In this document: piece after piece, positions 1 through 25,324 of the stretch
Position numbering within the stretch: position 1 is the stretch's first letter
Layout: each line of letters opens with the position of its first letter
Source of the DNA: a virus
IMG/VR virus record: IMGVR_UViG_3300025131_000360
Coordinates: 1 to 26,331 of that record
Direction: 5' to 3' (one strand)
Length of the DNA: 26,331 nt
Position numbers and translations under genes: made by a program
Notes under the pieces: generated by a model
What the model saw: the letters and a program-made list of their open reading frames with translations, nothing else
Told to the model about the DNA's origin: nothing
The model's database searches: none

Positions 1-67
1 TAATTATGAAGGCTTATGAAAAGGGGCGAAACACAAGCAAATCTACCCAGTTAGGGCAACAACTATA
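1..67. other. window edge, no gene recognised
   Basis: This is the stretch downstream of the last minus-strand gene. All three minus-strand frames contain stops within the 67 bases. No start codon with a ribosome site is visible, and no hairpin with a T-tract was found. The next gene of the operon probably starts beyond the window. Confidence 0.4.
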
Positions 68-826
68 TTATTCTAACCCAAGGCTATTATCTTGTACAAC
101 AGGCCGGTCTTGTGGCACCCTAACGCCCTCTTTTATAATAGTATCTTCGTCCTTTAAAGTATAGGAGGCACAATGTGCCTCGGCTAGTAATAGGGCCTCA
201 TACGCACGTTTTAACGTTTCGTCATCATTAAAGCCCTCATTTATATTAGCCTTTAACACAAAGTAAGAACCCTTGTCGCCTTTCTCCTTATCAGAGGATA
301 ACTTAAAACTACGAGCAAATATTGGTTCATTATTCATTTTTCCGTATCGCTTAAGCATAGAACTGATATATTCGCCGGTTTTCTTGCTTGTGCTCTTAAA
401 AATTAGAATATAAGGTACTAGCTCGTTATCTTCTTTTAAAACCACATAGAATCTAAACCGATAAGAGCGCCATTTATCGTCCTCGTTTAACAACTCTCCA
501 TTAGACCAAGTTATACCGTCATTAGAGAAAAGAGTCTTTTCTGATGTGTCGCCATAGGCAGGGAATTTGGCCCAGTCCATGGTCTTTTTAACAATAATTA
601 TGTCTACTGAGTCACCGCAAGGAAGTTCATTCGAAGTTTCCCAGAACTCACCAGCCTTAGCGCCCATCTCAACCTCTGGCGACATCTTCTGTATTAGCTT
701 CAAGTACCCAAGCTTTAACTTTGCCTCTTGAACATCCTCTAACCCGCACCCAGCGAACTTCCCCCAGTTCTTTTTATCCGTATCAAGACCCTGACTTACT
801 GTCGTTAAATCTTTTTCGTTTTTCAT
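68..826 (-). CDS. phage protein, possible DNA-metabolism (ssDNA-binding-like) role
   Basis: A 252-residue soluble protein with no signal peptide or membrane segment. I chose the ATG at 826 because AAAGGAG lies 6 bases upstream. An in-frame ATG at 853 also has a weaker AAAGG site 8 bases upstream and would add nine Lys/Glu-rich residues. The first half carries a pattern I associate with a phage family near replication genes: a leucine-rich segment ending in IQKMSPEV, then GAKAGEFW, then a beta-rich region containing the segment IIIVKKTMDWAKF. That association comes from memory of the family style and is not a domain hit. The gene lies directly downstream of the coiled-coil gene at 857-1222 in a tightly packed operon that also follows a helicase, so a role in replication or recombination is plausible. 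Other possibilities cannot be excluded. Confidence 0.7.
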   Translation of the reverse strand: MKNEKDLTTVSQGLDTDKKNWGKFAGCGLEDVQEAKLKLGYLKLIQKMSPEVEMGAKAGEFWETSNELPCGDSVDIIIVKKTMDWAKFPAYGDTSEKTLFSNDGITWSNGELLNEDDKWRSYRFRFYVVLKEDNELVPYILIFKSTSKKTGEYISSMLKRYGKMNNEPIFARSFKLSSDKEKGDKGSYFVLKANINEGFNDDETLKRAYEALLLAEAHCASYTLKDEDTIIKEGVRVPQDRPVVQDNSLGLE

Positions 827-856
827 TTTTAACTCCTTTTCTTTATTTTCCATTTT

Positions 857-1222
857 TTAAACCTTTCTGAAACTCAGCTTTTCATAGCTATCGACCTCAA
901 CACCTGGCAGTGCGCCCCCTTCATCGATGTGAATTTTAAAGGCTCGGCTATTAATCCGCTTGTGAAGAAAATCATATCTCTCATTATTCTTAACAAAAGT
1001 GAAAAATTCTGCCCAATCAATAACACGAGGCGCTATTTCTTGTTTGAAATGTACACTCAAATTCTTTATCCCGCTCTTCTCTAACCCTTCTTGTTTCATC
1101 TTTCTATGGACATCCGCTTCAATTTGCGCTACCTCGTCTTTTAATTCTCTTACCCGATGAAGCATTAGGGTTATTTCGTTATCAAGTTCTATTTTTTTTG
1201 TCAGTAATTCATTTAAAGTCAT
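857..1222 (-). CDS. small coiled-coil phage protein, function unknown
   Basis: A 121-residue protein. The first 45 residues form a charged heptad-like helix (LLTKKIELDNEITLML onward), typical of a dimeric coiled coil. A compact C-terminal domain follows with a tryptophan motif (VIDWAEFFTFV), HKRINSRAFK and the closing motif LSFRKV. Proteins with this build (N-terminal coil, then a domain ending in an L-x-x-R-K tail) occur in phage early operons beside nucleic-acid-binding proteins; I know no defined function for them. The start is well supported: AAGGAGG lies 5 bases before the ATG. The stop of the 45-residue gene at 1235-1372 lies immediately before this ribosome site, so the two are packed head to tail. 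Confidence 0.75.
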   Translation of the reverse strand: MTLNELLTKKIELDNEITLMLHRVRELKDEVAQIEADVHRKMKQEGLEKSGIKNLSVHFKQEIAPRVIDWAEFFTFVKNNERYDFLHKRINSRAFKIHIDEGGALPGVEVDSYEKLSFRKV

Positions 1223-1234
1223 TTAAACCTCCTT

Positions 1235-1372
1235 CTAATCATCACATGATTGCCTAGAAATTATTACAATTACGATAATAATAAAAACGATTGAGATACA
1301 TATGGTATCTTCTAAATAAGAGCCCTCATCATTAATCCTCAATTGACGGTGAAGGCTCTTTGATTCTCTCAT
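1235..1372 (-). CDS. 45-residue single-pass membrane protein, overlapping gene
   Basis: A short gene whose 5' part overlaps the 3' end of the gene at 1332-1736 in a different frame (41 bases shared). The protein starts MRESKSLHRQLR, has an acidic patch (residues 14-22, including D15, E16, E21 and D22), then one strongly hydrophobic helix (about residues 24-38, almost all Ile/Val/Phe), and ends SRQSCDD. The basic N-terminus predicts N-in topology. Support for it being real: AGGAGG lies exactly 8 bases before its ATG, inside the upstream gene. Its TAG stop sits directly against the AAGGAGG of the next gene, filling what would otherwise be a 109-base gap. No lipobox is seen, so it is not an Rz1-type spanin. 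The function is unknown; small phage membrane proteins may act in exclusion, lysis timing or host takeover. Confidence 0.6.
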   Translation of the reverse strand: MRESKSLHRQLRINDEGSYLEDTICISIVFIIIVIVIISRQSCDD

Positions 1373-1736
1373 TTTTAAAACCTCCTAAAAAATCAGGATC
1401 TGTTGTTCGTATACGGGCGACCATAAACATGGCCTCCTTTGAATTTCTTGCATCAATAGGCGGGCTCGTTATCTCTATTTCTCCAATCCAGGTTATCATG
1501 TGGTACCGGCCCTTAACATTAATTAATTTCGTTTTTTTTAAAATGGGAAACTCATCCCAGCGATTGACATGAACACTAATCCCAGCTATCTGCACTTCGA
1601 CGTCCTCCCTTTTCTTTTGTATCTCAGGAGTTTTTTTAATATCTTTCTTTTCGTCACCTGAGAAGAAGCTAAAAGCAAACATGATAATAAATAACGCCGC
1701 TATAATAACATCTGTATCCGGCAAGAAGCTTCTCAT
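1332..1736 (-). CDS. N-terminally anchored membrane protein, function unknown
   Basis: A 134-residue protein with one hydrophobic segment near the N-terminus (about residues 9-26, VIIAALFIIMFAFSFFSG). A Lys/Glu-rich linker (28-45) follows, then a soluble domain with several predicted beta strands (VQIAGISVHV, YHMITWIGEIEI). It looks like a signal-anchor protein with its domain outside the cytoplasm, or a type II membrane protein. The ATG at 1736 has only a modest ribosome site (AAAAGG, 9 bases away). A short reading frame of eleven codons (MLIYFVKGKLE) ends in a TGA that overlaps this ATG. It is the first long gene after the promoter at 1840-1868. Its last 41 bases are shared with the small membrane-protein gene. 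I do not recognise the family. Confidence 0.65.
   Translation of the reverse strand: MRSFLPDTDVIIAALFIIMFAFSFFSGDEKKDIKKTPEIQKKREDVEVQIAGISVHVNRWDEFPILKKTKLINVKGRYHMITWIGEIEITSPPIDARNSKEAMFMVARIRTTDPDFLGGFKNERIKEPSPSIED
1381..1386 (-). promoter_or_regulatory. ribosome binding site defining the overlapping small gene
   Basis: A perfect AGGAGG on the minus strand, 8 bases before the ATG at 1372. It lies inside the coding sequence of the 1332-1736 gene, where it encodes part of Leu-Gly-Gly. A consensus site at ideal spacing inside a gene is the main evidence for the 45-residue overlapping gene. Confidence 0.6.
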
Positions 1737-1839
1737 TCTAATTTGCCTTTTACGAAATATATTAGCATTGTTTAAGATTTCCTATCACCTCCATACTCTC
1801 GCGTTCCCTTCCGGTACTTGCTTTTTCTGATGTAATTAT

Positions 1840-1868
1840 ATAATAAGCTTTTAGTTGAAAATAGTCAA
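1840..1868 (-). promoter_or_regulatory. sigma-70-like promoter after the helicase gene
   Basis: On the minus strand TTGACT (1868-1863), a 17-base spacer and TATTAT (1845-1840). The -35 box starts just 3 bases past the helicase stop codon. The expected start is near 1833, giving a leader of about 100 bases before the gene at 1736. The same -35/17/-10 arrangement occurs twice at 3717-3845, which strengthens the call. A strong GGAGGTGAT sequence in the leader (near 1790) has no usable start codon at normal distance. Confidence 0.65.
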
Positions 1869-1871
1869 CCT

Positions 1872-3428
1872 TTATTTACCGCCTTGAATAAGCCTGAGGG
1901 CATCACGAGCATTAAAGTCTTTTTGCTTTAAAATCTTAAAGATAGATTCATCCAATGTAGACTCGGCCTGCAAGTATATATAGACAACGCTTTTATTCTC
2001 TGAACCTACCAGTCGTCTATTACGGCCCTTAGCTTGGACGTGATTTACACGACTGTAGTCTGTCTCGTAAAATATAGCGGTGTTTGCGTTTGGTAAAGAA
2101 TACCCGATTCCTGTTTGAATCTGAGCAATGAATACGCGTGTATCGTCACTATTGAATTTCTTATAACACGATTTGTCTTTTGTCTCGGAAAAATATGTCA
2201 TACAAGAGATCTTTAGCTTGTCACATAGCTTCTCGACACGCTTAATAGAGTGCGTGAACCGACACCAGACTATTATTTTTCTTGATGTTTCAAGCAACAA
2301 CTCTTCTAAAACATTAAGTTTTTCGTTACCGATATCGATAATCTCGTTTTCGTTATTAAGTGTAAAGCCCGAAGTGATTTGAGACAGTCGAATAAGCCGT
2401 TCCAGAACATTTGCTGTCATCCTCTCAGTCTCTTTAGCCAAAATAACGAACTCTTTTTCAAGGATTGTATAAGTCCTGCTATTCTTATCATTTAAATTAA
2501 ACTTTTTTATCACTTCAATTTCGGGCGGAAGGTCAACAACATCGTCCAGTTCAAATTTAAGGGAATTTGTACTAAGAAGCTTCCTAAATGAGTGCTCGTT
2601 TATATACCCAACGACTTGATGATTATTAAAGCCGCCCAATACCAAGAAAGAGTCCTTAAACCCGTTAAATGCTGACCCAAAGACGTGCGGTGATATTACC
2701 TTATACGGCATAAACACGTCTTCAAAGCTGTTACTAAACAGAGTACCGGTTAAGCCCACCTTATAACGAACACCTTTACTCAACTTTAAAGCCGCTTTAC
2801 TCTGCAGAGCTTGCCTATTCTTCAATCGGTGACACTCATCAAATACGACCATGTCGTATTTCGGCATTCGACCACCGAGCTTAGATAGCATTTCATAGTT
2901 AATAATATGAACAGGTGTATTCACGTTCAATAACTGTATCCTCTTGTATAAACTGCCCTCTATTACCGTAGACTCTAAATAACTGTGCTCCTCTATTTGG
3001 CTTTGGAAGTTCTTCATAATGGAGGCTGGCGATACAATAAGTGCCCTTTTAACATCACCACGATAATGTAGCTCACTTATGGCGTCAATTACAGCCTTAG
3101 ACTTACCTGTCCCTACGCCGCAAAGGAAGAAACACCTTTCTCTTTCAAGAACAAGATTTGTTAACATAACCTGATGCTTCCATGGCGATGTCTTGCTCTT
3201 AAACCCATGCTTTTGGAAATCTAAATTTAACTTAAGCTTAGACTGAAATAGACTATCTATTTCCTCCGGGAACTCCCAGTTAACGAACCGCTGAGACTTT
3301 ACGATCTCATAATTCATTAGCGTGGCATTCAGTGTCCAAGCCCTATGTTTGTTACTCCAAAAACAAATATCCTTAACATAATCACGGTCTGTATAATCAC
3401 ACTTGACAATAAACTTATCGTTATGCAT
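1872..3428 (-). CDS. SNF2-like superfamily 2 DNA helicase/ATPase
   Basis: A 518-residue protein with a full set of SF2 motifs: Walker A GVGTGKS (104-110), motif Ia region ALIVSPASIMKNF (129-141), Walker B DECH (197-200), motif III GLTGT (225-229), and in the second RecA domain KIIVWCRF (384-391) and motif VI QAKGRNRR (465-472). The order and the QxxGRxxR motif match phage and bacterial SNF2/Rad54-like ATPases, which move on duplex DNA. A short N-terminal domain (1-55) resembles the substrate-binding domain found before such helicases. The ATG at 3428 has no ribosome site and follows a run of (AT)6. The frame is open upstream: AAAAGGA followed after 6 bases by an in-frame ATT could be the true, non-standard start, adding about 11 residues. 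It is probably a replication or recombination helicase. Confidence 0.92.
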   Translation of the reverse strand: MHNDKFIVKCDYTDRDYVKDICFWSNKHRAWTLNATLMNYEIVKSQRFVNWEFPEEIDSLFQSKLKLNLDFQKHGFKSKTSPWKHQVMLTNLVLERERCFFLCGVGTGKSKAVIDAISELHYRGDVKRALIVSPASIMKNFQSQIEEHSYLESTVIEGSLYKRIQLLNVNTPVHIINYEMLSKLGGRMPKYDMVVFDECHRLKNRQALQSKAALKLSKGVRYKVGLTGTLFSNSFEDVFMPYKVISPHVFGSAFNGFKDSFLVLGGFNNHQVVGYINEHSFRKLLSTNSLKFELDDVVDLPPEIEVIKKFNLNDKNSRTYTILEKEFVILAKETERMTANVLERLIRLSQITSGFTLNNENEIIDIGNEKLNVLEELLLETSRKIIVWCRFTHSIKRVEKLCDKLKISCMTYFSETKDKSCYKKFNSDDTRVFIAQIQTGIGYSLPNANTAIFYETDYSRVNHVQAKGRNRRLVGSENKSVVYIYLQAESTLDESIFKILKQKDFNARDALRLIQGGK

Positions 3429-3483
3429 ATGAGATATATATATATGCTTTATGTTATTAATCAGTATTCCTTTTCTGATAAAA

Positions 3484-3672
3484 TTATTCGTCTGGCAGAA
3501 TATAGATTATCTTTGTCCTGTAATTCCGTTTTTCAAGGTTCTTATATAAACCCTGTGTACTAACCCCTATTTTTTTTGCTGATTTTTCGACACCCATTAG
3601 GTTTAATATATCCTCAAGTTTTGTATTCGGTATTTTATTTATAATCCCTTTTCTGCCGCCATCGTTGCCCAC
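3484..3672 (-). CDS. 62-residue Fis-type helix-turn-helix protein
   Basis: A small basic protein starting with GTG at 3672, supported by GAGGAG 8 bases upstream. The core, SAKKIGVSTQGLYKNLEKR (about residues 31-49), has the spacing of a Fis/NtrC-type HTH: a small residue, then G-V-S in the turn, then a recognition helix with L-Y. The basic N-terminus (GGRKGI) could add minor-groove contacts. It lies first behind two tandem promoters and immediately before the helicase gene, so it is most simply a phage regulator of the left-hand module, possibly acting on the promoter repeats or on the inverted repeat between them (inference). It is shorter than most DNA-binding regulators and has no visible partner domain. 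Confidence 0.65.
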   Translation of the reverse strand: MGNDGGRKGIINKIPNTKLEDILNLMGVEKSAKKIGVSTQGLYKNLEKRNYRTKIIYILPDE

Positions 3673-3716
3673 TAGTTAAACTCCTCGCCTTTTTTTATAA
3701 CTCCCCTAGTAACATT

Positions 3717-3745
3717 ATAATACATTAATGGTTGATATAAGTCAA
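3717..3745 (-). promoter_or_regulatory. sigma-70-like promoter, proximal copy
   Basis: On the minus strand TTGACT (3745-3740), 17-base spacer, TATTAT (3722-3717). The predicted start is near 3710, about 40 bases before the GTG of the HTH gene. The spacer holds ACCATTAATGTA, almost identical to the distal copy. Confidence 0.7.
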
Positions 3746-3769
3746 GCATTATGATAGGGGTTTGTGCAC

Positions 3770-3808
3770 TGGGAAGAAACTTTTGTTATATTTTTGAGCA
3801 ACTTCCCA
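3770..3808 (-). repeat. inverted repeat between the two promoters
   Basis: TGGGAAG (3770-3776) and CTTCCCA (3802-3808) form a perfect 7-bp inverted repeat with a 25-base loop. No T-tract follows, so it is not a typical terminator. It lies in the leader of the distal promoter and upstream of the proximal one, where an operator or RNA structure would be expected. Confidence 0.35.
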
Positions 3809-3816
3809 AGGCGAAT

Positions 3817-3845
3817 ATAATATATTAATGGTTTAGGCAGGTCAA
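3817..3845 (-). promoter_or_regulatory. sigma-70-like promoter, distal copy
   Basis: On the minus strand TTGACC (3845-3840), 17-base spacer, TATTAT (3822-3817). It begins 4 bases after the stop of the holin candidate and is offset from the proximal copy by exactly 100 bp. It starts the left-hand transcription unit. Confidence 0.7.
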
Positions 3846-3849
3846 GCTA

Positions 3850-4128
3850 TTAATCTGAGATTTTTTTTATTATCTCTTTGTATCGAAGAACTCTTTTTTC
3901 GAGTCTATTTATAAGACTTTTCTGTAAAGGGTCCTTTAGAAAAGGGGGTAATTTATCTACAATTCTATCATCAACAAAGAAGACCAGGTTATCAAAAAGC
4001 ATAAAGATGACATTTAAAATAGGAATTAAGAGAGCCATACTAACCACCGACCCGCCAAGCGTAACAACCAGTGAAACGGGGTCTAAAGCAAATCCTAAAA
4101 TAGCGTCTATCGGTAAAAAATTATCCAT
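3850..4128 (-). CDS. small hydrophobic protein, holin candidate
   Basis: A 92-residue protein. I set the start at the ATG at 4128, because AGGAGG lies 6 bases upstream; the open frame extends to 4182 but that would overlap the endolysin. Residues 6-50 are hydrophobic and could form one long or two short membrane helices around SLVVTLGGSVVSMALLIPIL. The C-terminal 25 residues are basic and helical (LINRLEKRVLRYKEIIKK), as in many holins, which have charged cytoplasmic tails. It directly follows the endolysin gene. Both facts support a holin, which would permeabilise the inner membrane and release or activate the endolysin. No sequence motif defines holins, so the call is by size, hydrophobicity and position. 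Confidence 0.55.
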   Translation of the reverse strand: MDNFLPIDAILGFALDPVSLVVTLGGSVVSMALLIPILNVIFMLFDNLVFFVDDRIVDKLPPFLKDPLQKSLINRLEKRVLRYKEIIKKISD

Positions 4129-4138
4129 TATCTTCCTC

Positions 4139-4549
4139 CTAGTATTTGTAAGTCCATCTAGCTTGCCTTGATCGGTCGACATCTAAGTGAACAAATCTAA
4201 ATCCTGTCCCCAGCCCTAATATAACATCGTATTTCTTGGCCGCTACCTCACAGACTTGTGCGATTTCAAGACCAATTTTATCCTTAACAGTGATATCAAC
4301 AGCACGCAACCCCCTTTCAAAGGCAGGTAAATGCCGGCTTTTCCAAGGTATCTTTTCAATCCACTCGTCCTTATAGAGGTCTTTATATATTTTTATATGC
4401 TGCTCTATTGTTCGAGTACTTGAGGTTATATTAACAGGACCTATATAGTCCCTAACATATTGCAATACTTTTAATAAGTCCGGTTCTGGGGCTACAAAAT
4501 TGAATTCACTTAACCAAAAATTATCACTCAGTTGTTTATCTATCATCAT
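4139..4549 (-). CDS. M15-family peptidoglycan peptidase, likely endolysin
   Basis: A 136-residue protein with the M15 zinc peptidase signature. SSTRTIEQHIKIY (43-55) is followed by SRHLPAFERG (71-80) and AVDI (83-86), with H73 and D85 as likely zinc ligands. FRFVHLDVDR (117-126) holds the third ligand H121, with D123 in the catalytic region. Family members cleave D-Ala-D-Ala or L-Ala-D-Glu bonds in cell-wall peptides. The spacing H73 to D85 is longer than the usual 7-8 residues, so a small loop seems inserted. The start at 4549 overlaps the upstream stop as ATGA and has AAGGG 5 bases upstream; a second ATG follows directly. There is no signal peptide, consistent with release through a holin. 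The open frame starts at 4594, but that start would overlap the neighbour by 49 bases. Confidence 0.85.
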   Translation of the reverse strand: MMIDKQLSDNFWLSEFNFVAPEPDLLKVLQYVRDYIGPVNITSSTRTIEQHIKIYKDLYKDEWIEKIPWKSRHLPAFERGLRAVDITVKDKIGLEIAQVCEVAAKKYDVILGLGTGFRFVHLDVDRSRQARWTYKY

Positions 4550-4935
4550 CGTATCCCTTGATACACACTTAAGTACTTCATTGCACCGAGACAACCAAGA
4601 AGGGTAATTGTTAGCTTAAGAATTTCAATGCCCCAGTTCGTTTTATCCTTTTGCTCCTGGACAAGGTCCTTGATAGATTCCTTTAATTTATCATCAAAAC
4701 TTTCAGATAAATCTTTTAATTTTAGGCTAAAGTCCTCCTTGATCTTCGTATGCTCTTTCTTTCTTTCTTCTCTCATGGTTAGAAAGTCGTTGTCTCGTTG
4801 TAGGTTTAATACCTCTTCCTTACTTTTTAACGCTTGGTCAAGCTGGTCAGAAAAACTTGGGACTGCGGCTGTATCTGGGAACCGTTCCTTAATCAGCCTG
4901 TTTATAGCCTCCTCGATATCGATATCACTATTCAC
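4546..4935 (-). CDS. coiled-coil protein with C-terminal membrane segment in lysis cassette
   Basis: A 129-residue protein with a GTG start at 4935 supported by AAGGAGG. Residues 35-95 are a highly charged helical region with heptad spacing (KSKEEVLNLQRDN, KLKDLSESFDDKLKESI), so a coiled coil is likely. Residues about 103-122 (IEILKLTITLLGCLGAMKYL) form a single hydrophobic helix followed by a short tail. This tail-anchored design is the reverse of an Rz inner-membrane spanin, whose membrane segment is N-terminal. The gene is first in the lysis cassette, behind a possible extended -10 promoter, and its stop overlaps the endolysin start. It may be a lysis accessory protein or a tail-anchored membrane protein of another role; the family is not recognised. 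Confidence 0.7.
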   Translation of the reverse strand: MNSDIDIEEAINRLIKERFPDTAAVPSFSDQLDQALKSKEEVLNLQRDNDFLTMREERKKEHTKIKEDFSLKLKDLSESFDDKLKESIKDLVQEQKDKTNWGIEILKLTITLLGCLGAMKYLSVYQGIR

Positions 4936-5027
4936 TTCTAGCCTCCTTAATTTACCCCCTGGATTTTATGTAAATAATAAATAAGGGCAAATTAATAAAA
5001 CTACAGCTAGCATTAATCGAAATCTTC

Positions 5028-5036
5028 ATTATATCA
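5028..5036 (-). promoter_or_regulatory. possible extended -10 promoter for the lysis cassette
   Basis: Minus strand TGATATAAT (5036-5028) matches the extended -10 form TGnTATAAT. There is no good -35 box at 17 bases. A start near 5021 would give a leader of about 85 bases before the GTG at 4935. The same 9-mer pattern also occurs inside genes (near 18941 and 22438), so the match alone is weak; its intergenic position is what supports it. Confidence 0.4.
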
Positions 5037-5074
5037 TTTAAAAAAATTAATTGTTTTAGGCATGACTTAAACAA

Positions 5075-5114
5075 CACCTTTTTTAGCATTTGATAGAATT
5101 GCAGCCTTTACAGC
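5075..5114. repeat. 40-bp dispersed repeat, copy at the fibre 3' end
   Basis: This 40-bp block matches 9675-9714 at 37 of 40 positions in the same orientation, with no visible similarity on either side. Here it encodes the last ten fibre residues and the stop codon, in a different frame from the other copy. Confidence 0.85.
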
Positions 5115-7473
5115 CTTCCAGTTTATTTATTCTATTTTCTAACTCATCAATTTTTTGTGATTTTTCTGACAAGTATAAGAAATGGGTTTCTGTTGTGTTC
5201 CATAGTTGACTAACTAATTTCCCTATTGAAGAAGATCCGGCTTTCTCCCATTCTCCACGACCTATGATAGTTGAAAGATGCAAGTTTTCTTTTACAAAAG
5301 AAATCTCTTCAGAAAATGATTTCATTTTGTAATTTTTGAATTTTTCGTCTTTTATTTTTTGTCCAAAATAGGCTTCAAAAACATAGTCTGTTAGCAAAGA
5401 GGTATCATCATAAACAGCTACAGCATTAATAGTTCCAGCACCCCTTGATCCTCCTGTTGGAGCCCCGACTGTCATACCGCCGTCCGAATGAATCTTAAAA
5501 CATTCTGTCAAAGTAACATCCGAACCAACGGCTGTGCTTTGAGAAGCTGCATTACTAAATATAAGTTCATGAGACACTTGAAGAGCAGCTCTGTACCAAG
5601 TGTCATTATCCGCACTAGAAACAAAGCCTACACCACCTGATTTTGGACGAACCGCATAACAAATAGTGGGGGCACCTGTTGAATAATAAGTGCCTAACAC
5701 AGCTACATAATCATTATTAGCTTCTCCATATCTACTTTGTAATACAGTTGTTCCATCAGTAGCTCCTGCATCACCAGCCGTTATCCTTCCATCTACATAA
5801 AGCCTGTCAGAATTGTATATTGTAGAAAACCCAATTCCAACGTCTCCGTTACTATCAACCCTCATTCTCTCAGTGTTATTAGTCCCAAATGTAAGTGCCC
5901 CAGAATAAAAATTAAAAATCTTTGACACATTCGAAGCATCTTGAAATATTTTCAATCCATTAGCGTCTGCATTTGCATATTTAGCTGTAAATACACCTCC
6001 ACCTAATGTAAGAGCTGTCTCAGGAGAGGCATCGTTTATCCCTATGCGATTGTTAGTTGAATCTACATACAAAGTATCCGTATCAACCGTCAAATCACCT
6101 GTAATACTTAAAGATGTTAAGGTTCCTAAACTCGTAATATTAGCCTGTGCTGCTGTTTGTAATGTGCCTGTAATAGCTGTAGAAGTAAGAGCTGTTAAAC
6201 CTGTTAAAATAGTGCCATCGAAACTAGCACCACCGTCTATAACAACTGCTGAACCGGCATTGGGGGTTAATGTTATGTTTCCTGTTGAGGAACTCATATC
6301 GTTGCCATTTACAACTAAATTATCGACGGTTAAAGATGTAACCCCTGCTACAACACCGCCGTCTAGGGTTACAGATTCAATTGAGACAACTTGTCCAGAA
6401 GCCGCAGTTATAGTTAAAGCACTTGCCCCAGCACTAGAAATAGCATTTCCATTTATAGTGATGTCATCTACGGTTAAAGTAGTTAGTGTTCCGACGGAAG
6501 TTAAACTCGAATTAACAACAGCGCCGCCTAATGTTGTGGCATTAAGGACACTAGTATCGTTAATATAAAATGCCTTTCCACTAACTACGTTTACACCAGA
6601 ATCGTTAACATGAAAAATCTCGGTTCCATCAACATTGAATCTAAATTCACCCTTATCTGCGGTCCCACTAGCGACATCTGTCTGAAAAATAACATATGAT
6701 AATGTTTGGGCTCCCGAATCATAAACGCACTGGATATGAAGCTCTTCAGCATCGGTGGCCCCAATCCGCATTTGAGGATTTCCGTCGTTGCTCGCGACAT
6801 AGAACGTATTACCATTAGTCATCACTTCTTGCCATGTATCCGTCGTTAGAATAGCAGCATCAACATAAGCTTTTATACTTTGTTGTGTGGCAAGCTTTAC
6901 CGCTGAGTTTGAACTCATATCATCCTCATCTAATATACCCGTGACCGTAGCACCGCTACCCGCGATATCTAAGCTTACATTACATGTAACGGCCCCGCTC
7001 GAAATTGTCAGACTGGCCGTGCTAGCCCCAGCCTTCATAGAATAAAGGGTTATTTTGCCATCTTCTGTCCCATTCGTAACATCGGTGGATTCGACTAATA
7101 TTTTGCCGAATAAAGTCTTATTTTCTCCATCATCGTTTCCGTAAAAATTAATAACCCCTACATTATCATTGTCCGCAGGGCTAGCGCTTAATTTATAAAA
7201 TTGCAATTCACTTGAATTAGCGTCTGCATTAGTATTTTTTATAGTCAATGCTGGTTTTGCTGATGTTGAACTAGAGTTTGTGATATCCCCGCTATTAGTG
7301 ATGTTTTGTGAGGAATCAATTACGTCGCTGCCCGCTATTTTAAGCTTGGCTATATTTATGTCCTTTGAACCAGCGTCGAGCCCGTCAATTATTGCTGATA
7401 CATTGGAGTTGAGCCTTGCGGCCGTCAAAACGTTAGCCGTGCTCCAGGTGTAAGCTTGTTCTATATATCCCAT
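5083..7473 (-). CDS. tail fibre / receptor-binding protein
   Basis: A 796-residue protein, the largest in the window. The N-terminus (MGYIEQAYTWSTANVLTAARLNSN) is the usual virion-attachment style. Residues 325-480 hold beta-rich repeats of about 50 residues (LTVDDITINGNAIS at 333 and LTVDNLVVNGNDMS at 381), ending with LYVDSTNNRIGINDASPE, a pattern common in phage fibres that form trimeric beta structures. Residues 680-796 (TINAVAVYDDTSLLTDYVFEA, then a helical region, then DELENRINKLE) look like a C-terminal trimerising or chaperone-like domain ending in a coiled coil. The last ten residues include four cysteines (CKGC and a final C, plus the preceding codon context) and come from the out-of-frame 40-bp repeat. 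AGGAGG precedes the ATG. It likely binds the host surface receptor. Confidence 0.85.
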   Translation of the reverse strand: MGYIEQAYTWSTANVLTAARLNSNVSAIIDGLDAGSKDINIAKLKIAGSDVIDSSQNITNSGDITNSSSTSAKPALTIKNTNADANSSELQFYKLSASPADNDNVGVINFYGNDDGENKTLFGKILVESTDVTNGTEDGKITLYSMKAGASTASLTISSGAVTCNVSLDIAGSGATVTGILDEDDMSSNSAVKLATQQSIKAYVDAAILTTDTWQEVMTNGNTFYVASNDGNPQMRIGATDAEELHIQCVYDSGAQTLSYVIFQTDVASGTADKGEFRFNVDGTEIFHVNDSGVNVVSGKAFYINDTSVLNATTLGGAVVNSSLTSVGTLTTLTVDDITINGNAISSAGASALTITAASGQVVSIESVTLDGGVVAGVTSLTVDNLVVNGNDMSSSTGNITLTPNAGSAVVIDGGASFDGTILTGLTALTSTAITGTLQTAAQANITSLGTLTSLSITGDLTVDTDTLYVDSTNNRIGINDASPETALTLGGGVFTAKYANADANGLKIFQDASNVSKIFNFYSGALTFGTNNTERMRVDSNGDVGIGFSTIYNSDRLYVDGRITAGDAGATDGTTVLQSRYGEANNDYVAVLGTYYSTGAPTICYAVRPKSGGVGFVSSADNDTWYRAALQVSHELIFSNAASQSTAVGSDVTLTECFKIHSDGGMTVGAPTGGSRGAGTINAVAVYDDTSLLTDYVFEAYFGQKIKDEKFKNYKMKSFSEEISFVKENLHLSTIIGRGEWEKAGSSSIGKLVSQLWNTTETHFLYLSEKSQKIDELENRINKLEGCKGCNSIKC

Positions 7474-7474
7474 C

Positions 7475-9133
7475 TTATCGTCCTCCTTCTTCTTTAGATC
7501 TTAATAGTCTTCTTAGTTCGGGCGCACTCGAACCAGTTACTCTTCCTGCTTCCTGACCCATAATGACATTTGCGCCCCCTCTTAATCCCCGTTGGGCCGC
7601 TGTACGGAACCCTCTAGACTCTGCCCCTATTAAAGACTTTCCAAATCCACTTGGAGACTTAGCGCCTACTTGAACCCCTGCAAAACCTTTTGTAAATGGA
7701 ATCCCTATATTTTTGCCTCCACGCTGTGTTGTAGAACGAAAATGTTTTGCTGCTCTTTGATCTAAAAGGGCATTAATAACTTTTGATGCTTCTTTACTCT
7801 TTGATGCAAGTTCATCTATTTTGCTTCTAAGCACTGAGCTAGCATTACTAAAATATTTAGTAGCAATTAGCTCTACCTTATCCTCATTAGTAAGCCGCGA
7901 TAGACTATCTTCTAAATCAAAAATAGCCCTATATTCATCTGTTATATTCTTGTACCCAGGAACAGCATCATCTAGTTTGCCTCTTATGCCTTTGTGGACA
8001 TTATGCAGTATGTTCTTTGCGTTATCATTTTCTTTTATACCCTTTACCTTTAAAACCTGATTAATCTTCTGCTTAAGTTTATGAGCGTGTTCTAAGGTAG
8101 GGTTTTTTGAAAATCTATCTATAGAGGATGAGAATTTTTCTAACTGAGCTGTCGCGGCATCATCAAGCCCCGCCTCTCCAATTAACTTTACCTTTCCTTT
8201 TTTACCAATTCTTTTTATGGTCGCTAGCTTTGATAAGTCATCACTGTATTTTTTTATCACATCAGTTAGGTCAATTTTTTTAGTTGTATCATCTAAAAGA
8301 GGCGCGATTTTTTCGCTAAACTCTTCACGTACACCTATCAACGCATCATCAACAGCGTTACTAGCTCTTATGACGACATCAGGATTCATTCCAGGCTTTT
8401 TTAAATTTTTTGGCGTTAATATATTTTTAGGGCCTCTTTCCAATACTCTTTCTGTAGCATAATACAGCACCCCTTTTTCTTCACCAGATCTAGCTATATT
8501 GCTAATTACCGCGTCTCTTGACTCTTCCGGAACCTCATCCACAACACCTTGAAGCCAATTCACCGTTTTTTGCCAAGTATTAGGGCCGCCCTTTGTTTGA
8601 GCGAACTTACTAGGACTAAGCGCTTTTTCGAAAGGTTTCAACGCTGACTTACCAGCTTTTGATAAAGGTTTCAACACTTTTCCGCCTACCTTCATTATTG
8701 GCCCGCCGACTGCAGTGAAGATCCCTTCTTTAACCATATTGCCTAATATGGTGTCATCTTGAATGAAATTCTCAATCGTTTTAGGGAATAGCTTTTTTTC
8801 ACGTTCAAATAATAATTTTTCGAATGCCCCTTGAAGGCCCTTCCCAGCCGCTGCCCCGACCACTGTGCCCGACCCTGCGCTAACGACCCCACCAATAACA
8901 CCGCCTAGCACAGGAAATGCTATATCAGCAATGTCCTTACCCCTATATGAAGGCTCCTTACCTTGCTCTGGGGTTACATCCAAGCCCGTACTTGCTACAC
9001 CGGCACCGTTTTCTTGCGGGGTTTCGTTTTGTGCTATATATGCTTTCACTCCCTGTACAATTTCCGATTGATCGGTGCCTTCCGCGAAAGAAATATCGCC
9101 CCAATTTGTCTCTACTATAATCTCATTAGCCAT
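7475..9133 (-). CDS. internal virion / ejection protein candidate (552 aa)
   Basis: Residues about 70-105 form a glycine- and alanine-rich hydrophobic stretch (FPVLGGVIGGVVSAGSGTVV) that could insert in a membrane. A long helical region with many Lys and Glu follows (about 180-460), and the C-terminus is basic and Gly/Arg-rich. Such architecture, next to two similar large proteins and just before the tail fibre, is typical of podovirus internal proteins that are ejected with the DNA and form a channel across the envelope. The ATG at 9133 overlaps the last base of the upstream stop codon, and GGAGGGGG precedes it. There is no lytic transglycosylase motif that I can see. The functional call is by position and composition, not by a recognised domain. 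Confidence 0.65.
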   Translation of the reverse strand: MANEIIVETNWGDISFAEGTDQSEIVQGVKAYIAQNETPQENGAGVASTGLDVTPEQGKEPSYRGKDIADIAFPVLGGVIGGVVSAGSGTVVGAAAGKGLQGAFEKLLFEREKKLFPKTIENFIQDDTILGNMVKEGIFTAVGGPIMKVGGKVLKPLSKAGKSALKPFEKALSPSKFAQTKGGPNTWQKTVNWLQGVVDEVPEESRDAVISNIARSGEEKGVLYYATERVLERGPKNILTPKNLKKPGMNPDVVIRASNAVDDALIGVREEFSEKIAPLLDDTTKKIDLTDVIKKYSDDLSKLATIKRIGKKGKVKLIGEAGLDDAATAQLEKFSSSIDRFSKNPTLEHAHKLKQKINQVLKVKGIKENDNAKNILHNVHKGIRGKLDDAVPGYKNITDEYRAIFDLEDSLSRLTNEDKVELIATKYFSNASSVLRSKIDELASKSKEASKVINALLDQRAAKHFRSTTQRGGKNIGIPFTKGFAGVQVGAKSPSGFGKSLIGAESRGFRTAAQRGLRGGANVIMGQEAGRVTGSSAPELRRLLRSKEEGGR

Positions 9134-10389
9134 TATGCCCCCTCCATAGATATAAGCGTGCCAGAATTCTGATCCAATTTATATCGACCGGGGGTCAACC
9201 GGTTTATACCGGGGTCAACACGTTTCGCTGGGAACGATCCTGTGATGAATGGTGAGAGTTGGCTAGTCTGATCACCTTCAGCCTGGGCACTTTTTAAATG
9301 ACCCTCATAGCTCTTTTCTTCCTCTTCCGAGAAATGCCTTTTTAAAAAGGCTGCCCTCTTTTCCTCATCCATAGTGCCCCCGTATTTCGCTAGATTTAAT
9401 GTATCTTTTATAATCTGAACAGACCTATTTAACTTTTTTCTCTGTTGAGCTGGTGTGTCGGTCGTTAAAATTGCAAATAGAGCCTTAAAAGCTCTTATCT
9501 CGCTTGCCGGAACCGCCGCCCCTGACAAAGCGCGCCCTAACCCCTCTGTGATTAAATCTAAATCCGATCTCGCCGCTTGATGCTGTTTTAAAACTTGAGC
9601 ACCCGGGGTAGCGGCCCCCATAAGCGTTTTAGAAAAACCTTCGTCTTTATCCAGTTGAGATAGTAGACTTTCAGCACCTTTTTTAGCATTTTTTAGAATT
9701 GAAGCCTTTACAGCAAAATCTTTCATGCCAGTAACCGGTTTTAACATAGTAATCGCATCTTTCCCCTCACCGATTGTTACGAATCCTTCTGTTGGTATAC
9801 TGTCAAGGTCTTCTTTAGTTGCGACCGTGAATCCTTTCATTTGCAAACTTAACTTTGCGGATGCTAGCTCTTTATTGGAAAGCGATCCCATTGCCTCTTT
9901 AGCAGTCTTTAAAGTCTCCGCTTGAAGTTTCCCTGTTTCAGCAATTAGCTTTCTCTTCTCAAGACCTGCCATCTCTTGTGCCGCTGCTTCGGCACCAAGT
10001 TCCTGAACAGCGCCGAGCCCACCTACAACCATTTGGCCAGGAGCACGAGAGCCAGACAAAGAAGAACCAATTTGGGCCCCCAGTTTTGCCCCAGACAAAC
10101 CCATGCCAAGCCCAATTCCGCCAACGGCTGCCCCGCCCAATGAAAGCAAAAGGTTCATCTTGTCTCGTGGCATATCTACTTCTCTTATCGTTTGACGACG
10201 CTGTTTACCCATCTCAGAGACAAGGCTAGCTTGGCCAGCGCCCCTTGCCCTCTCTAGTTCGGCCTGACCTTGAAGCTCGCGTAACTCACCTAGCCTCTGG
10301 GTTTCAGACTCCCTCTTACTAAGGATATCGCCCAACCCTAAAGACTGCGTTAAACTCCTGCCTAAAAGTGATTGTAATCCATTACTCAT
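9133..10389 (-). CDS. internal virion / ejection protein candidate (418 aa)
   Basis: Residues 22-70 are a charged helix (RESETQRLGELRELQGQ). Residues 80-130 form a glycine-rich hydrophobic segment (LLSLGGAAVGGIGLGMGLSG) like a fusion or membrane-insertion element. The rest is mostly helical. This is the middle gene of three consecutive large proteins of this kind, between the nozzle-like gene and the fibre. Podovirus ejection proteins usually occur as such a trio. AGGAGG precedes the ATG at 10389. Residues 226-239 (AVKASILKNAKKGA) are encoded by the 40-bp repeat whose second copy ends the fibre gene. This copy lies mid-gene in an intact frame, so it is the likely ancestral one. Confidence 0.65.
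   Translation of the reverse strand: MSNGLQSLLGRSLTQSLGLGDILSKRESETQRLGELRELQGQAELERARGAGQASLVSEMGKQRRQTIREVDMPRDKMNLLLSLGGAAVGGIGLGMGLSGAKLGAQIGSSLSGSRAPGQMVVGGLGAVQELGAEAAAQEMAGLEKRKLIAETGKLQAETLKTAKEAMGSLSNKELASAKLSLQMKGFTVATKEDLDSIPTEGFVTIGEGKDAITMLKPVTGMKDFAVKASILKNAKKGAESLLSQLDKDEGFSKTLMGAATPGAQVLKQHQAARSDLDLITEGLGRALSGAAVPASEIRAFKALFAILTTDTPAQQRKKLNRSVQIIKDTLNLAKYGGTMDEEKRAAFLKRHFSEEEEKSYEGHLKSAQAEGDQTSQLSPFITGSFPAKRVDPGINRLTPGRYKLDQNSGTLISMEGA
9675..9714. repeat. 40-bp dispersed repeat, copy inside an ejection-protein gene
   Basis: This matches 5075-5114 at 37 of 40 positions. On the minus strand it encodes AVKASILKNAKKG in frame. The other copy would read AVKAAILSNAKKG in the equivalent frame, but the fibre uses a different frame. 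Confidence 0.85.
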
Positions 10390-10404: not shown

Positions 10405-11964
10405 TCATTTTTGACCTGTCGCCCATCGAAATATATTTCCGCCCAAATCCCCCTCTTTTTGTGTTTTTCGCTCTTCTCTTCCTTGCTGGGCAATCAACGC
10501 TTTTTGCTGCTTAATCTGTTCGTCAGAAAGGTCTTTCTGGGCCTTTAAACTGGCCTCAACTAAGGCCTGGCTCATTCTTCTAGACTTAACAGGGTCGTCT
10601 ATAAGCATCGAAATATTTTCGACTTCACTGGCGCCCTCAGTACCTGGGTCTACAATGTTGCCTAACTCGTCTTCCCAATGAGAGCCAAAGATGAATTTGC
10701 CCTGCTCAGTACCAATAGCGTTACGGATTTTTGTATAGTCATCAACGCTCAATCCAGCTGAAGCTGCAATATTTTGTAAATCACGCTCATCGTTCGTGGT
10801 CAATTCTGCGTCTGGGCCAAGGTAGTACTCCAATTCTCTCTGCGCATCCTCAGGAGATACATTGCCCGACAATGCTAATTCTAGAGTCGTTGCGTATCTT
10901 CGTTCTCTTCGGGAGTCCCGATCACTTCTTTCCCTTGATGAGAGCTCCCTTTCTTGGGCCTCTTCTCTAAATTTAATATCAGATTCTTGTAACCATTTTT
11001 GCATATCTCTTTGTAAAGCGCTTTCGTTTATGGTTAATGTTCGACCTAGTAACGCTTGTTCGGCTTCGAATTTCTGGGCGGCTTCTTGAGTATTAAGACC
11101 AAATTCTCGTTGTAATTCATTCTCTTCTCGTGAGAATGTTCTACCTAATTCATTTTCTTGTGCTTGGAATATTTGGCCTGCCTCTTGGGTAGAAAGTCCA
11201 AACTCTCGTTGTAACTCGCTCTCTTCTCGTGAGAAGGTTCTACCTAGAGCCGCTTGCTCTGCCTGAAAAGCTTGGCCAGCCTCTTGAGTGCTCAAGCCAA
11301 ATTGACGTTGCCTTTCTGCTTCTTCTGACGTGAAATCACGTCCTAAAACGGCTTGTTCGGCCTGGAACTCACGTTGCCTTTGTGTCTCCTGGGTGCCTAA
11401 CTCTGCTATTTCTCTACGCAAACCTCTCTCTTGTTCGGCCTGCTCACCAACGAATTCACGTTGTCTTTGCGCTTCTTCAAATCCTTTTTGTGGAAGCTCG
11501 CGCCTTAGTTCTCTCTCAAGACCTGCCTGTTCACGTGTAAGCTCTCTACCTAGCCCCGCCTGTTCACGTGTAAGCTCTCTACCTAGCCCCGCCTCTTTTT
11601 CTTGGAATTCAAAACCGGCGCTCTGTAACTCTTTTTGTAATGTTCTCTGTTTTGCTGCCTCTGAAGCTGCAAAAGCCTGGTCCATAGCACTTTTACCGAG
11701 TTGGGCACCTAGCGAACTTGCAATCTGACCCTCTACACGTTGTTGTTCTTTAAATACATCACGCAAACCCTCACCACCGACCCCGCCAAATGCTATACCC
11801 TTTTGTGCTAAAGACTCAGTTGTGCCTTTCAATCTATCTTGATAACCCGCTCGTAACGGGCTTACAGCTGATTCAAAGGCTTGCGTAGCAACATCTTGCT
11901 GTGAGGTGGGCAATGTTGGTGCTTCCACTGTTGCATATTCTTGTTCTAATTCGTCAATTGGCAT
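10405..11964 (-). CDS. virion protein with long 11-residue-periodic coiled coil
   Basis: A 519-residue protein. Residues 1-126 are a mixed region rich in Ala, Gln and Glu. Residues 127-192 hold six 11-residue repeats (two identical LGRELTREQAG units), 193-206 is a 14-residue bridge, and 207-338 holds twelve more. These last twelve fall into four 33-residue super-repeats, each with units like LGRTFSREESE, LQREFGLSTQE and AGQAFQAEQAA. An 11-residue period predicts a hendecad coiled coil, which is nearly straight or slightly right-handed. The C-terminal 180 residues are non-repetitive and helical. Its position, first of three large proteins after the nozzle-like gene, suggests an internal or tail-channel component ejected with the DNA (inference). 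The ATG at 11964 has AAGGAGG upstream. Confidence 0.75.
   Translation of the reverse strand: MPIDELEQEYATVEAPTLPTSQQDVATQAFESAVSPLRAGYQDRLKGTTESLAQKGIAFGGVGGEGLRDVFKEQQRVEGQIASSLGAQLGKSAMDQAFAASEAAKQRTLQKELQSAGFEFQEKEAGLGRELTREQAGLGRELTREQAGLERELRRELPQKGFEEAQRQREFVGEQAEQERGLRREIAELGTQETQRQREFQAEQAVLGRDFTSEEAERQRQFGLSTQEAGQAFQAEQAALGRTFSREESELQREFGLSTQEAGQIFQAQENELGRTFSREENELQREFGLNTQEAAQKFEAEQALLGRTLTINESALQRDMQKWLQESDIKFREEAQERELSSRERSDRDSRRERRYATTLELALSGNVSPEDAQRELEYYLGPDAELTTNDERDLQNIAASAGLSVDDYTKIRNAIGTEQGKFIFGSHWEDELGNIVDPGTEGASEVENISMLIDDPVKSRRMSQALVEASLKAQKDLSDEQIKQQKALIAQQGREERKTQKEGDLGGNIFRWATGQK
10951..11586 (-). repeat. coding repeat region, 33-bp units in 99-bp super-repeats
   Basis: This DNA encodes residues 127-338 of the coiled-coil protein. 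Units of 33 bp (11 codons) recur. In the later half they group into 99-bp units that are visibly similar at the DNA level (for example the blocks beginning near 11100 and near 11199). It is a coding repeat, not a CRISPR array or an origin. Confidence 0.8.
11525..11594. repeat. perfect 33-bp tandem duplication
   Basis: Two adjacent copies of a 33-bp unit are identical through 37 bases (11525-11561 and 11558-11594). They encode two identical LGRELTREQAG hendecads. Perfect identity while neighbouring units have diverged indicates a recent in-frame duplication. Confidence 0.9.
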
Positions 11965-14704: not shown

Positions 14705-14713
14705 ATTATAACA
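14705..14713 (-). promoter_or_regulatory. possible extended -10 promoter at the cassette end
   Basis: Minus strand TGTTATAAT (14713-14705) overlaps the stop codon of the last glycosyltransferase. The best -35 is TTGTAT at 16 bases, a poor match. A start near 14698 would put the terminator about 50 bases downstream, an attenuator-like layout. The pattern also occurs by chance in genes, so confidence is low. Confidence 0.3.
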
Positions 14714-15851
14714 GACTTTTAAGAAAATACAAAAGTTTTCGGGTCTCAGTATGAAGACTATAGTATGTTATACACTGTTTACTTAACTTCATCTTCGATT
14801 TATTAGGCTGGCTTTTAGTCTCTAAATGAGATTTTAGGCCGCCTCCTATCCCCAAATCGTTGTCAGATATAAATTCAGTGAAAGCATTCCTCCAACTCTT
14901 GATCGAATTATCGACCAACCAAATACCGCCTTTTGTTTTTCTGTAAGGCTCAACATCACTTGCAAGCAAAGGAACATCAAGACTACTCCACTCGATCCAC
15001 TTCAAATTGCTTTTGCATCTGTTGAATTCACTATCGCATAACGGCGCTAAGGCTAAATCGAGGTCCATATCATATAATTGCTGAGGATATTCCGTCATGT
15101 TCCAGTTAACAGATTTAAAATCAATTTGAGGGTGCTTCTTTAGAAAAGAAGGGCGGTATCCACCATACCTAATAATAAATTTAACATGAATATTGTTATC
15201 TAAGAGCGGGAGAAGTGCCCTATAAGAAATTCTTAAATCATCGTCATGCGCACCCCCGCCCACATAACCAATTCTAATACCGTCGTGGCTAAGTTTCTTC
15301 TTATCCACTTTCCATGTACCTCTATTGATACAGTTAGGTGCAATATGAAGAGGCTTTTCACCGACATGAAGAGGCGTACCCGACGTTAAAACTGGGCGAA
15401 TAGATTTAGCTAAATACTCTGTGCTACATATAACAGCATCCGAACGATACAAATGCTCTGCACTCCATCTATGTTGGTCAGTCCAAGTATAAGGAGAGCT
15501 AGGACTGACCTCCCCTAAACTGTCATCGATCTCAGCGACCGTTTTTACTTTTGGGAACTCTCGTTTAAACTCTTCTATAAGAGCAATAGCCGCCAAGCTA
15601 TGAAATCGCTGAAAAATGATAATATCAAAGAATTTGAACGCACTCCTTAACTTTCTTTGAATTTTATCGCTTATTTCGCCATAACCCACGCACATACTTG
15701 GCCACGATACATGAAGAGGCAAGATATCCTCAAAGTATTCAACATTAACAGTAGCCGAAGCCTTCATCCTGACCATTTGTTCCGCATAATTCTCGATTCG
15801 CCAATAGGCCACACCAAGATTTAGTGTGTTCACATATAATATTTTTATCAT
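14706..15851 (-). CDS. GT4-like glycosyltransferase (GT-B fold)
   Basis: A 381-residue protein. I placed the start at the ATG at 15851 (MIKILYVNTLNLGVAYWR), which has AAAGGA 5 bases upstream and overlaps the methyltransferase stop as ATGA; the open frame extends 11 codons further. The N-terminal domain ends around residue 190. The C-terminal domain has RIGYVGGGAHDDDL (the nucleotide-sugar domain glycine loop) and the segment LKWIEWSSLDVPLLASDVEPY, where the first Glu of a GT4-type E-x7-E-like region would lie. These are typical of retaining glycosyltransferases that use nucleotide sugars. It is the last gene of the cassette, followed by a terminator. Its acceptor is unknown. Confidence 0.8.
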   Translation of the reverse strand: MIKILYVNTLNLGVAYWRIENYAEQMVRMKASATVNVEYFEDILPLHVSWPSMCVGYGEISDKIQRKLRSAFKFFDIIIFQRFHSLAAIALIEEFKREFPKVKTVAEIDDSLGEVSPSSPYTWTDQHRWSAEHLYRSDAVICSTEYLAKSIRPVLTSGTPLHVGEKPLHIAPNCINRGTWKVDKKKLSHDGIRIGYVGGGAHDDDLRISYRALLPLLDNNIHVKFIIRYGGYRPSFLKKHPQIDFKSVNWNMTEYPQQLYDMDLDLALAPLCDSEFNRCKSNLKWIEWSSLDVPLLASDVEPYRKTKGGIWLVDNSIKSWRNAFTEFISDNDLGIGGGLKSHLETKSQPNKSKMKLSKQCITYYSLHTETRKLLYFLKSLL

Positions 15852-16525
15852 TCTTTTTCCTTTACCGCTGTAATACCAACCCATTGGGGCGGAAATATAT
15901 GATTATTCTCTGAGTCAAGGCCTATAGGTTTGATGCCCTCACTAATACAAAAATGATCGATATAAGGTATCTCGACAATAGTTGCCTTGTCCTTCTTGAA
16001 ACAGCTATAGATTAACGTATTAAGTATCTCTAATGTAAAGTTCTGGTGATGGTAATCACCAAGCTTCTCCTCACACATAAAAGAAGATGGATGAGGGACA
16101 GTGATGATATACTTTCCGCCGGGTTTTAACACCCTATACGCTTCCTTAACCGCTGGAAACGGGTCATAAAGGTGTTCAAGGACTTCCCCACACATAACAA
16201 CATCAAAAAAATCAGACTTATACCTAGATAAATCCTCCGCCTCGCCCTGCTCCGCATATATACCTCTCCTCTTTGCTTTCTCTACTAAAGTATCGACTAA
16301 ATCAATACCATTAACGTGACAATCTTTACTTAATAAATGGACACCTAAAGAACCGCCGTTACAACCCACATCTAATACCTTCGATGACTCTGGCACCTGG
16401 TCAACAAAATAACGAATCCTATTATAATGACTCTGGTACGGGTTCCCATACTGCTTTAGAACACCGTCTGACCTATAATTATCTATATGCGAAGCCTGGG
16501 CCTCGTCTTTACTTTTGAACCTCAT
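15848..16525 (-). CDS. SAM-dependent class I methyltransferase
   Basis: A 225-residue protein with the class I methyltransferase motifs: motif I VLDVGCNGGSLG (about residues 44-55), motif II acidic VNGIDLVD, the region FDVVMCGEVLEHL, and the post-motif YRVLKPGGKYIITVPHPSSF. This is the UbiE/type 11 layout common in genes for O-antigen or glycan methylation. The start overlaps the epimerase stop (ATGA), with no separate ribosome site needed. Lying among glycosyltransferases, it probably methylates a sugar in the glycan the cassette makes, for instance as a chain-end modification (inference). The target atom cannot be read from the sequence. Confidence 0.88.
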   Translation of the reverse strand: MRFKSKDEAQASHIDNYRSDGVLKQYGNPYQSHYNRIRYFVDQVPESSKVLDVGCNGGSLGVHLLSKDCHVNGIDLVDTLVEKAKRRGIYAEQGEAEDLSRYKSDFFDVVMCGEVLEHLYDPFPAVKEAYRVLKPGGKYIITVPHPSSFMCEEKLGDYHHQNFTLEILNTLIYSCFKKDKATIVEIPYIDHFCISEGIKPIGLDSENNHIFPPQWVGITAVKEKE

Positions 16526-17433
16526 GTCTCATCCCCTCTTAACTTATCTAAAACATCCTCTATCTTTGTCTGGCAAAATACATTTTCACCACTACTATTC
16601 AAATCTTGCTCTTTAAAATCTCTGGGGTCCTCGTCTATAACTTCGTACTCATTTCCAAACAACTTTAGTAAATACTCAAGGCTATACTCATGCTTTCCTA
16701 ATGCATTTACAATGGAGGCATAACCCCTATCGGCCGTCGATATAAGTATATCTATCAAGTCCTCAACATAAGTAAACCTTCTTCTTATATTAGCGGGATT
16801 TCCATTAACCATTATTTTTTTACCAGATATCAATTTACTTATAAACATATCTGGCCTTCCAAGCTCCCCATAAACTGTAAAGGGCCTTACTATACTAATA
16901 TGGGCACCTCTTAGCCAAGAGAGATACTCTGGGAACCTATCTTGTTCTTCGTGAAAGTCTAAAATACTTTGTTCGGCCATTTTTTTGGATAATGAATAAG
17001 GGGTTTCAACATCTCCTAGAACAGAGGAAGAGCTAACATATATATAACTCATGTAATTTTCATGATTATCTGCACGTATATTCCTAAGATGCTTCTTTAA
17101 CTCATTTACGTTGTTTTTAATATAATCAAGAGGATCTCTATTACCCCTAATCCCCGCATATGAACCTAAATGAAAAACATAATTATAACTATTATGACTA
17201 TAACCACCACGCCATACGCCTCTTTCAAAACCGCCTAGCCATTCCAAGGGTAACGACTCCGGTAATCCCTCCTTTCTCTTCCTTATAACTTCTTCAGAAG
17301 GGTTTCCCGTAGGCTCACCAATATCATAGATATCAAGGTCCGTAACACCCATCTTCAACAACCTTTTGCATAACCATGAACCAATGAACCCGTGCCCCCC
17401 TATGACAAGGACCTTAGAATCTTTATTTATCAT
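16522..17433 (-). CDS. NAD-dependent sugar epimerase/dehydratase (extended SDR)
   Basis: A 303-residue protein. The N-terminal NAD-binding loop is GGHGFIGSW (about residues 12-20). The catalytic YSLSK (Tyr-x-x-x-Lys) follows a Ser-rich strand YIYVSSSSVLGD. The later segments SIVRPFTVYGELGRPDMFI and RRFTYVEDLIDIL match the substrate-binding part of NAD-dependent nucleotide-sugar epimerases and dehydratases. These enzymes convert one nucleotide sugar to another, supplying substrates for the neighbouring transferases. The exact reaction cannot be told. It overlaps both neighbours by 4 bases. Confidence 0.88.
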   Translation of the reverse strand: MINKDSKVLVIGGHGFIGSWLCKRLLKMGVTDLDIYDIGEPTGNPSEEVIRKRKEGLPESLPLEWLGGFERGVWRGGYSHNSYNYVFHLGSYAGIRGNRDPLDYIKNNVNELKKHLRNIRADNHENYMSYIYVSSSSVLGDVETPYSLSKKMAEQSILDFHEEQDRFPEYLSWLRGAHISIVRPFTVYGELGRPDMFISKLISGKKIMVNGNPANIRRRFTYVEDLIDILISTADRGYASIVNALGKHEYSLEYLLKLFGNEYEVIDEDPRDFKEQDLNSSGENVFCQTKIEDVLDKLRGDET

Positions 17434-25189: not shown

Positions 25190-25196
25190 TTGGTTG

Positions 25197-25202
25197 CCTC
25201 CT
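25197..25202 (-). promoter_or_regulatory. ribosome binding site deciding the portal start
   Basis: AGGAGG on the minus strand, 7 bases before the ATG at 25189. It fixes the start of the portal 24 codons downstream of the longest open frame. Confidence 0.75.
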
Positions 25203-25324
25203 ATCAAATCCTGAGACATAGCGCCTCTTTTTAACATATCATAAAAACTCGATACAAACAATGGTTTTTCATTAAAACTATCTACTTTTAGGCTTTTTTA
25301 GCGAAAAAACCATATGAAATAGCA

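Follow-up and report, generated by a model that had tools for sequence, protein, structure and literature searches.

Probable out-of-frame copy of a piece of another gene at the 3′ end of a phage tail-fibre-like gene

The 3′ end of a tail-fibre-like gene in an uncultured virus carries 40 bases that were probably copied ectopically from the interior of a 418-aa gene of the same phage lineage, by way of illegitimate recombination or a brief template switch. The window analysed here covers the virus record in full (26,331 bases), an assembled metagenome contig that may be a fragment. Within it the two copies form a direct repeat with sharp edges and are read in different frames, the 418-aa gene is intact, and the fibre copy is situated directly behind a conserved domain. 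Scars of ectopic (illegitimate) copying are an already known kind of event, and the general picture of phage evolution is left unchanged by this one. On our reading, it would nevertheless provide a clean natural case of a phage gene acquiring a new terminus when part of an unrelated gene within the same genome is read out of frame, and new tails could evolve at the fibre end behind the coiled coil.

Table 1. Features of the 26,331-base record that bear on the repeat.
Feature	Position	Strand	Remarks
Terminase-like gene	25325-26269	-	
Portal/head-tail adaptor gene	23225-25261	-	
Major capsid protein gene	20338-21420	-	
418-aa gene, probable donor	9133..10389	-	N-terminal DNA 85% identical to G001; virion or ejection role suggested by position
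Probable source site	9675..9714	-	within the 418-aa gene, frame 0, reads AVKASILKNAKKG; ungapped protein alignment to G001 here
Tail-fibre-like gene, 796 aa	5083..7473	-	phrog_9942 tail fiber (E 9e-5); phage tail-fibre proteins matched weakly by tblastn; N-terminus 66% to G008
Fibre C-terminal domain, ends in coiled-coil helix (RINKLE)	5115..5502	-	common to many uncultured phages; 80/84 loci kept; terminal helix in the model
Fibre-gene copy	5075..5114	-	codes CKGCNSIKC and the TAA stop (5083-5085); extends 8 bases beyond the stop; 37/40 identity to 9675-9714
AU-rich hairpin, possible weak terminator	5030..5085	-	one arm supplied by the block; RNA folding energy -8.3 kcal/mol (z -1.78); 12/200 shuffles as good

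The main genes of the record lie on the minus strand (Table 1). After the capsid gene, their order runs through a block of glycosyltransferase, methyltransferase and epimerase genes, the tail-type genes and three genes of 519, 418 and 552 aa to the fibre gene, behind which follow a 129-aa gene and a peptidase M15-type endolysin. The label “ejection protein”, which the initial annotation had given to the 418-aa gene, rests on position; the match to a “pilot protein for DNA ejection” (E 7e-5) belongs to the neighbouring 519-aa protein. A Pfam search with the 418-aa protein was without match, and PHROG returned one borderline match of unknown function (E 0.01). Neither the fibre C-terminus nor the whole 418-aa protein had a match among known phages, and the C-terminal part of the latter gave chance-level matches only (E 7). 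Searches of IMG/VR found one locus for a 525-aa gene, 24 for the capsid protein and two for the fibre N-terminus, and zero relatives were confirmed with the 418-aa gene, the last 239 residues of the fibre or the 552-aa gene.

Positions 5075-5114 and 9675-9714, which run in the same orientation, share 37 of their 40 bases, and the pair can be lengthened to 5072/9672, with 39 of 43 bases identical. The edges are sharp, since position-for-position identity drops beyond them to 11/46 on the gene-upstream side and 9/32 on the downstream side. A chance match is excluded: the record compared with itself gives the pair a self-BLAST E of 3.45e-10, a 401-base query against the record gives a blastn E of 5e-12, and the match was recovered in none of 100 dinucleotide shuffles of the record (three differing bases masked, 3 mismatches allowed), while the top direct 40-mer match in 60 second-order Markov windows reached 30/40. 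The only direct matches that score higher (up to 39/40) are tandem units of the 519-aa gene at 33-base spacing, and the pair is the only dispersed direct repeat of the record (>1 kb apart, E<=1e-5). The block is read in frame 1 by the fibre gene and in frame 0 by the 418-aa gene, and because the frames differ, a common protein function cannot account for the match. The match with its abrupt ends, the negligible role of chance and the shift of frame had all been described from the letters of the sequence, and they stand with their coordinates. One detail is adjusted, insofar as the block codes nine residues (CKGCNSIKC) and TAA, preceded by two bases of a Gly codon, so that the “last ten residues” first ascribed to it hold only if the preceding Gly is counted (GCKGCNSIKC).

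The last ~130 residues of the fibre constitute a domain that is common to many uncultured phages. A search with an alignment of this domain and three genome-contig relatives returned 84 IMG/VR stretches, of which 80 were kept. C-termini were read in 82 proteins (the 80 viral ones together with L050 and L051); a stop was present in 77, of which 24 carried a terminal heptad of the R(I/L)xxLE type, a count that describes and does not test, since the pattern was written after the relatives had been inspected. The tails behind the heptad of these 24 relatives are 2-29 residues long (median 4; 2-9 residues in 22), and none of them contains Cys, one protein having a Cys just before the heptad. Two further proteins, L050 and L051, show a much longer continuation behind the coil, and L052 is cut before its end. 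In the fibre (5083-7473), the ten residues, three of them Cys, follow RINKLE. The start of the block falls within the codon next to LE, directly behind the terminal coil, where most of the 24 comparable relatives stop. This position agrees with the original suggestion that the fibre gained a new 3′ end. The check proposed along with it, a comparison of fibre 3′ ends in relatives, showed 22 of 24 proteins stopping 2-9 residues past the heptad, in relatives that are distant and were picked by the post-hoc pattern. G008 (L040), a relative, matches the fibre at the N-terminus and departs from it at the C-terminus, and L049 breaks off within the fibre.

These observations also bear on how the event should be described. 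The initial annotation offered illegitimate recombination or a tail swap; illegitimate copying fits best, whereas “tail swap” is too strong because the C-terminal domain is intact. The proposed link to turnover of the receptor-binding gene is conjectural; the block is positioned past the C-terminal domain, adds about ten residues and leaves the domain intact. Mechanistically, template switching or illegitimate joining during replication could have produced a short copy of the piece from the 418-aa gene, and this copy would then have replaced or overrun the native fibre end just behind the terminal coiled coil. Read in another frame, the copy would yield a short Cys-bearing tail and a stop, and the new tail may be tolerated rather than needed. 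The longest exact run in common is 17 bases, and at that length the pair more probably records a past event than serves as an efficient substrate for new ones.

In an AlphaFold monomer model of the C-terminal 139 residues (17 aligned sequences, pTM 0.68), the terminal helix (residues 93-136) is predicted to continue into the new tail, with a mean pLDDT of 94-96 for residues 101 to 130 and of 66 for the last nine residues. By our reading of the heptad register, the three tail Cys occupy positions g, c and a, and consequently no disulfide design is evident. It could be supposed that the copy now serves the phage: the C-terminal Cys tail would be able to lock the chains of the fibre trimer by disulfides, and the block would at the same time contribute the stop codon and a terminator A-tract. 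If so, an accidental out-of-frame copy would have turned into a working gene end, but we find this distinctly unlikely. Our results suggest that the fibre end behind the coiled coil accepts an arbitrary peptide. As to the identity of the C-terminus, no Pfam family names it, and a PDB fold search gave nothing at E<=0.001. An intramolecular chaperone domain of the Peptidase S74 type was considered and rejected, as no Pfam S74 match was present in the fibre, its C-terminus or the families of the 17 aligned members.

The direction of copying was approached through G001 (L041), a 4,653-base contig that carries the closest relative of the 418-aa gene. The 418-aa gene shares 85% DNA identity with it over ~160 codons and then diverges strongly, and is in this sense a mosaic. 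At the site of the block the two proteins align ungapped with the spacing kept on both flanks, at low identity, and because of this ungapped alignment the 418-aa gene is the likelier source. A 40-base insertion into that gene at the site would break the frame, whereas overwriting of equal length would not. The comparison thus favours a copy that would have passed from the 418-aa gene to the fibre end, in line with what had first been proposed.

Among the alternatives, we first consider an external donor, i.e. that the fibre end was exchanged from a phage already carrying a related piece, or that both copies came from a third sequence. The mosaic nature of the 418-aa gene itself is compatible with such an origin, as are the variable C-termini among the fibres of relatives and the difference of the copies at 3 of 40 bases. 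However, a third copy was found in none of the collections searched, and we regard an external donor as unlikely. A contig mis-joined at the fibre end is less probable still. The record is an assembled metagenome contig, and the seven genes left of the fibre have no relative among the loci compared, for which reason a mis-join keeps some weight; tetranucleotide usage, compared between 5-kb blocks, was too noisy to tell whether the record is chimeric. On the other hand, the exact run of 17 bases is below usual assembler word lengths, and a repeat-mediated join would not leave a near-complete second copy in another gene with three differences. Moreover, L040 and L049 keep the gene order up to the fibre.

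It could also be argued that the block is a conserved signal maintained at two places, since both copies have the same orientation and base pairing is possible between an A-tract within the block and a T-tract past the fibre gene. This pairing forms the hairpin behind the fibre stop (Table 1); it may be a weak terminator, and the terminator scan does not list it. Against a common signal, the folds of the two copies have nothing in common (z-scores +0.92 and +0.60), Rfam gave no match in 4900-5400, a promoter and terminator scan of 1-7600 and a tRNA scan revealed nothing common to both copies, and one copy lies inside a coding gene. Recurrence of the block as a site, or its presence at both places in distant relatives, had been named from the start as what would speak against a copying event, and neither was found in the collections searched. 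The block occurs twice in the record, in none of 25 relative records at <=3 mismatches, and nowhere in IMG/VR as an exact pattern. Both 43-base copies were compared with 50,697 phage records without a match covering 80% (best listed E 0.2 and 9), and an ungapped scan of 138 loci (1.26 Mb) reached at best 27/40. These collections may omit records very near this virus; as the block does not recur in them, it is not a common functional site, and we consider a signal of this kind highly improbable. Least probable of all is that the fibre end is the original and the 418-aa stretch was overwritten by gene conversion, which would suit the strong dissimilarity of the 418-aa protein to G001 around the site, but not the spacing kept on both flanks or the fact that the unusual member among relatives is the fibre tail.

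The proposed copying event can be compared with known systems. According to one account (PMC2327257), illegitimate recombination was proposed on the strength of patches in lambdoid phages whose borders carry no signal, and RecA- or Red-dependent recombination is stated to require about 30 bp. The fibre copy resembles the patches as presented there (PMC2327257) in being sharply bordered, of high identity within otherwise unrelated sequence and without border signal. It differs in that those patches (PMC2327257) are exchanges between phages, whereas here both copies reside in one genome, only 40 bases are involved and the frame is changed. Dispersed direct repeats (>1 kb apart, E<=1e-5) were present in 5 of 8 reference phage records (10 pairs in T7, 4 in HTVC019P and 1 each in HTVC115P, HTVC010P and SIO1), and therefore such repeats are not rare as such; among stretches from relatives they occurred in 1 of 9, two of the nine being from one contig. 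Like those of T7, SIO1 and HTVC115P, the fibre/418-aa pair consists of short direct repeats >1 kb apart. The dispersed repeats of T7, however, are largely annotated promoters and the terminal repeat, whereas no common function was found for our pair, and the 38-base, 89% repeat of Pelagibacter phage HTVC115P is read in the same frame in both genes as a protein motif, whereas our pair is out of frame. In Roseophage SIO1 (L140), a perfect 32-base dispersed direct repeat was observed at 8562-8593 and 37462-37493.

Diversity-generating retroelements comprise template and variable repeats. Our pair resembles them in having a near repeat at the 3′ end of a fibre gene, but its partner is inside another coding gene. 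On the coding strand, the differences from the 418-aa copy to the fibre copy are T to G, A to T and A to C; in the reverse direction no difference starts from A, and on the complementary strand one of three does. A retroelement of this type does not fit, because the three differences are not adenine-specific in either direction or strand. No reverse transcriptase was named among the scanned proteins, which represent part of the ORFs of a record that may be a fragment.

Several further features of the record were observed along the way. The glycosyltransferase, methyltransferase and nucleotide-sugar epimerase genes (14706-19801) are located within the structural cluster, and by eye similar ORFs occupy the same place in L040. 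The 519-aa gene contains tandem units of 99 and 33 bases (11063-11289 and 11525-11594); this repeat region is coiled-coil-like and differs from relative to relative. The C-terminal ends of its relatives (L049 2082-3401, L018 11425-12650 and, on the reverse complement, L042 3471-5108) are unlike one another, which suggests that these genes, too, switch ends, and some relatives bear a similar Cys-holding stretch, CTELFRQG/CTELYRQG. In L040, a 197-aa ORF at 16637-17230, by eye of the homing-endonuclease type, directly precedes the fibre gene. Finally, three alike promoter-like sites, TTGAC(T/C)-17-TATTAT with similar flanks, are found on the minus strand at 1840-1868, 3717-3745 and 3817-3845, and a decayed resemblance to them is discernible by eye directly behind the fibre stop.
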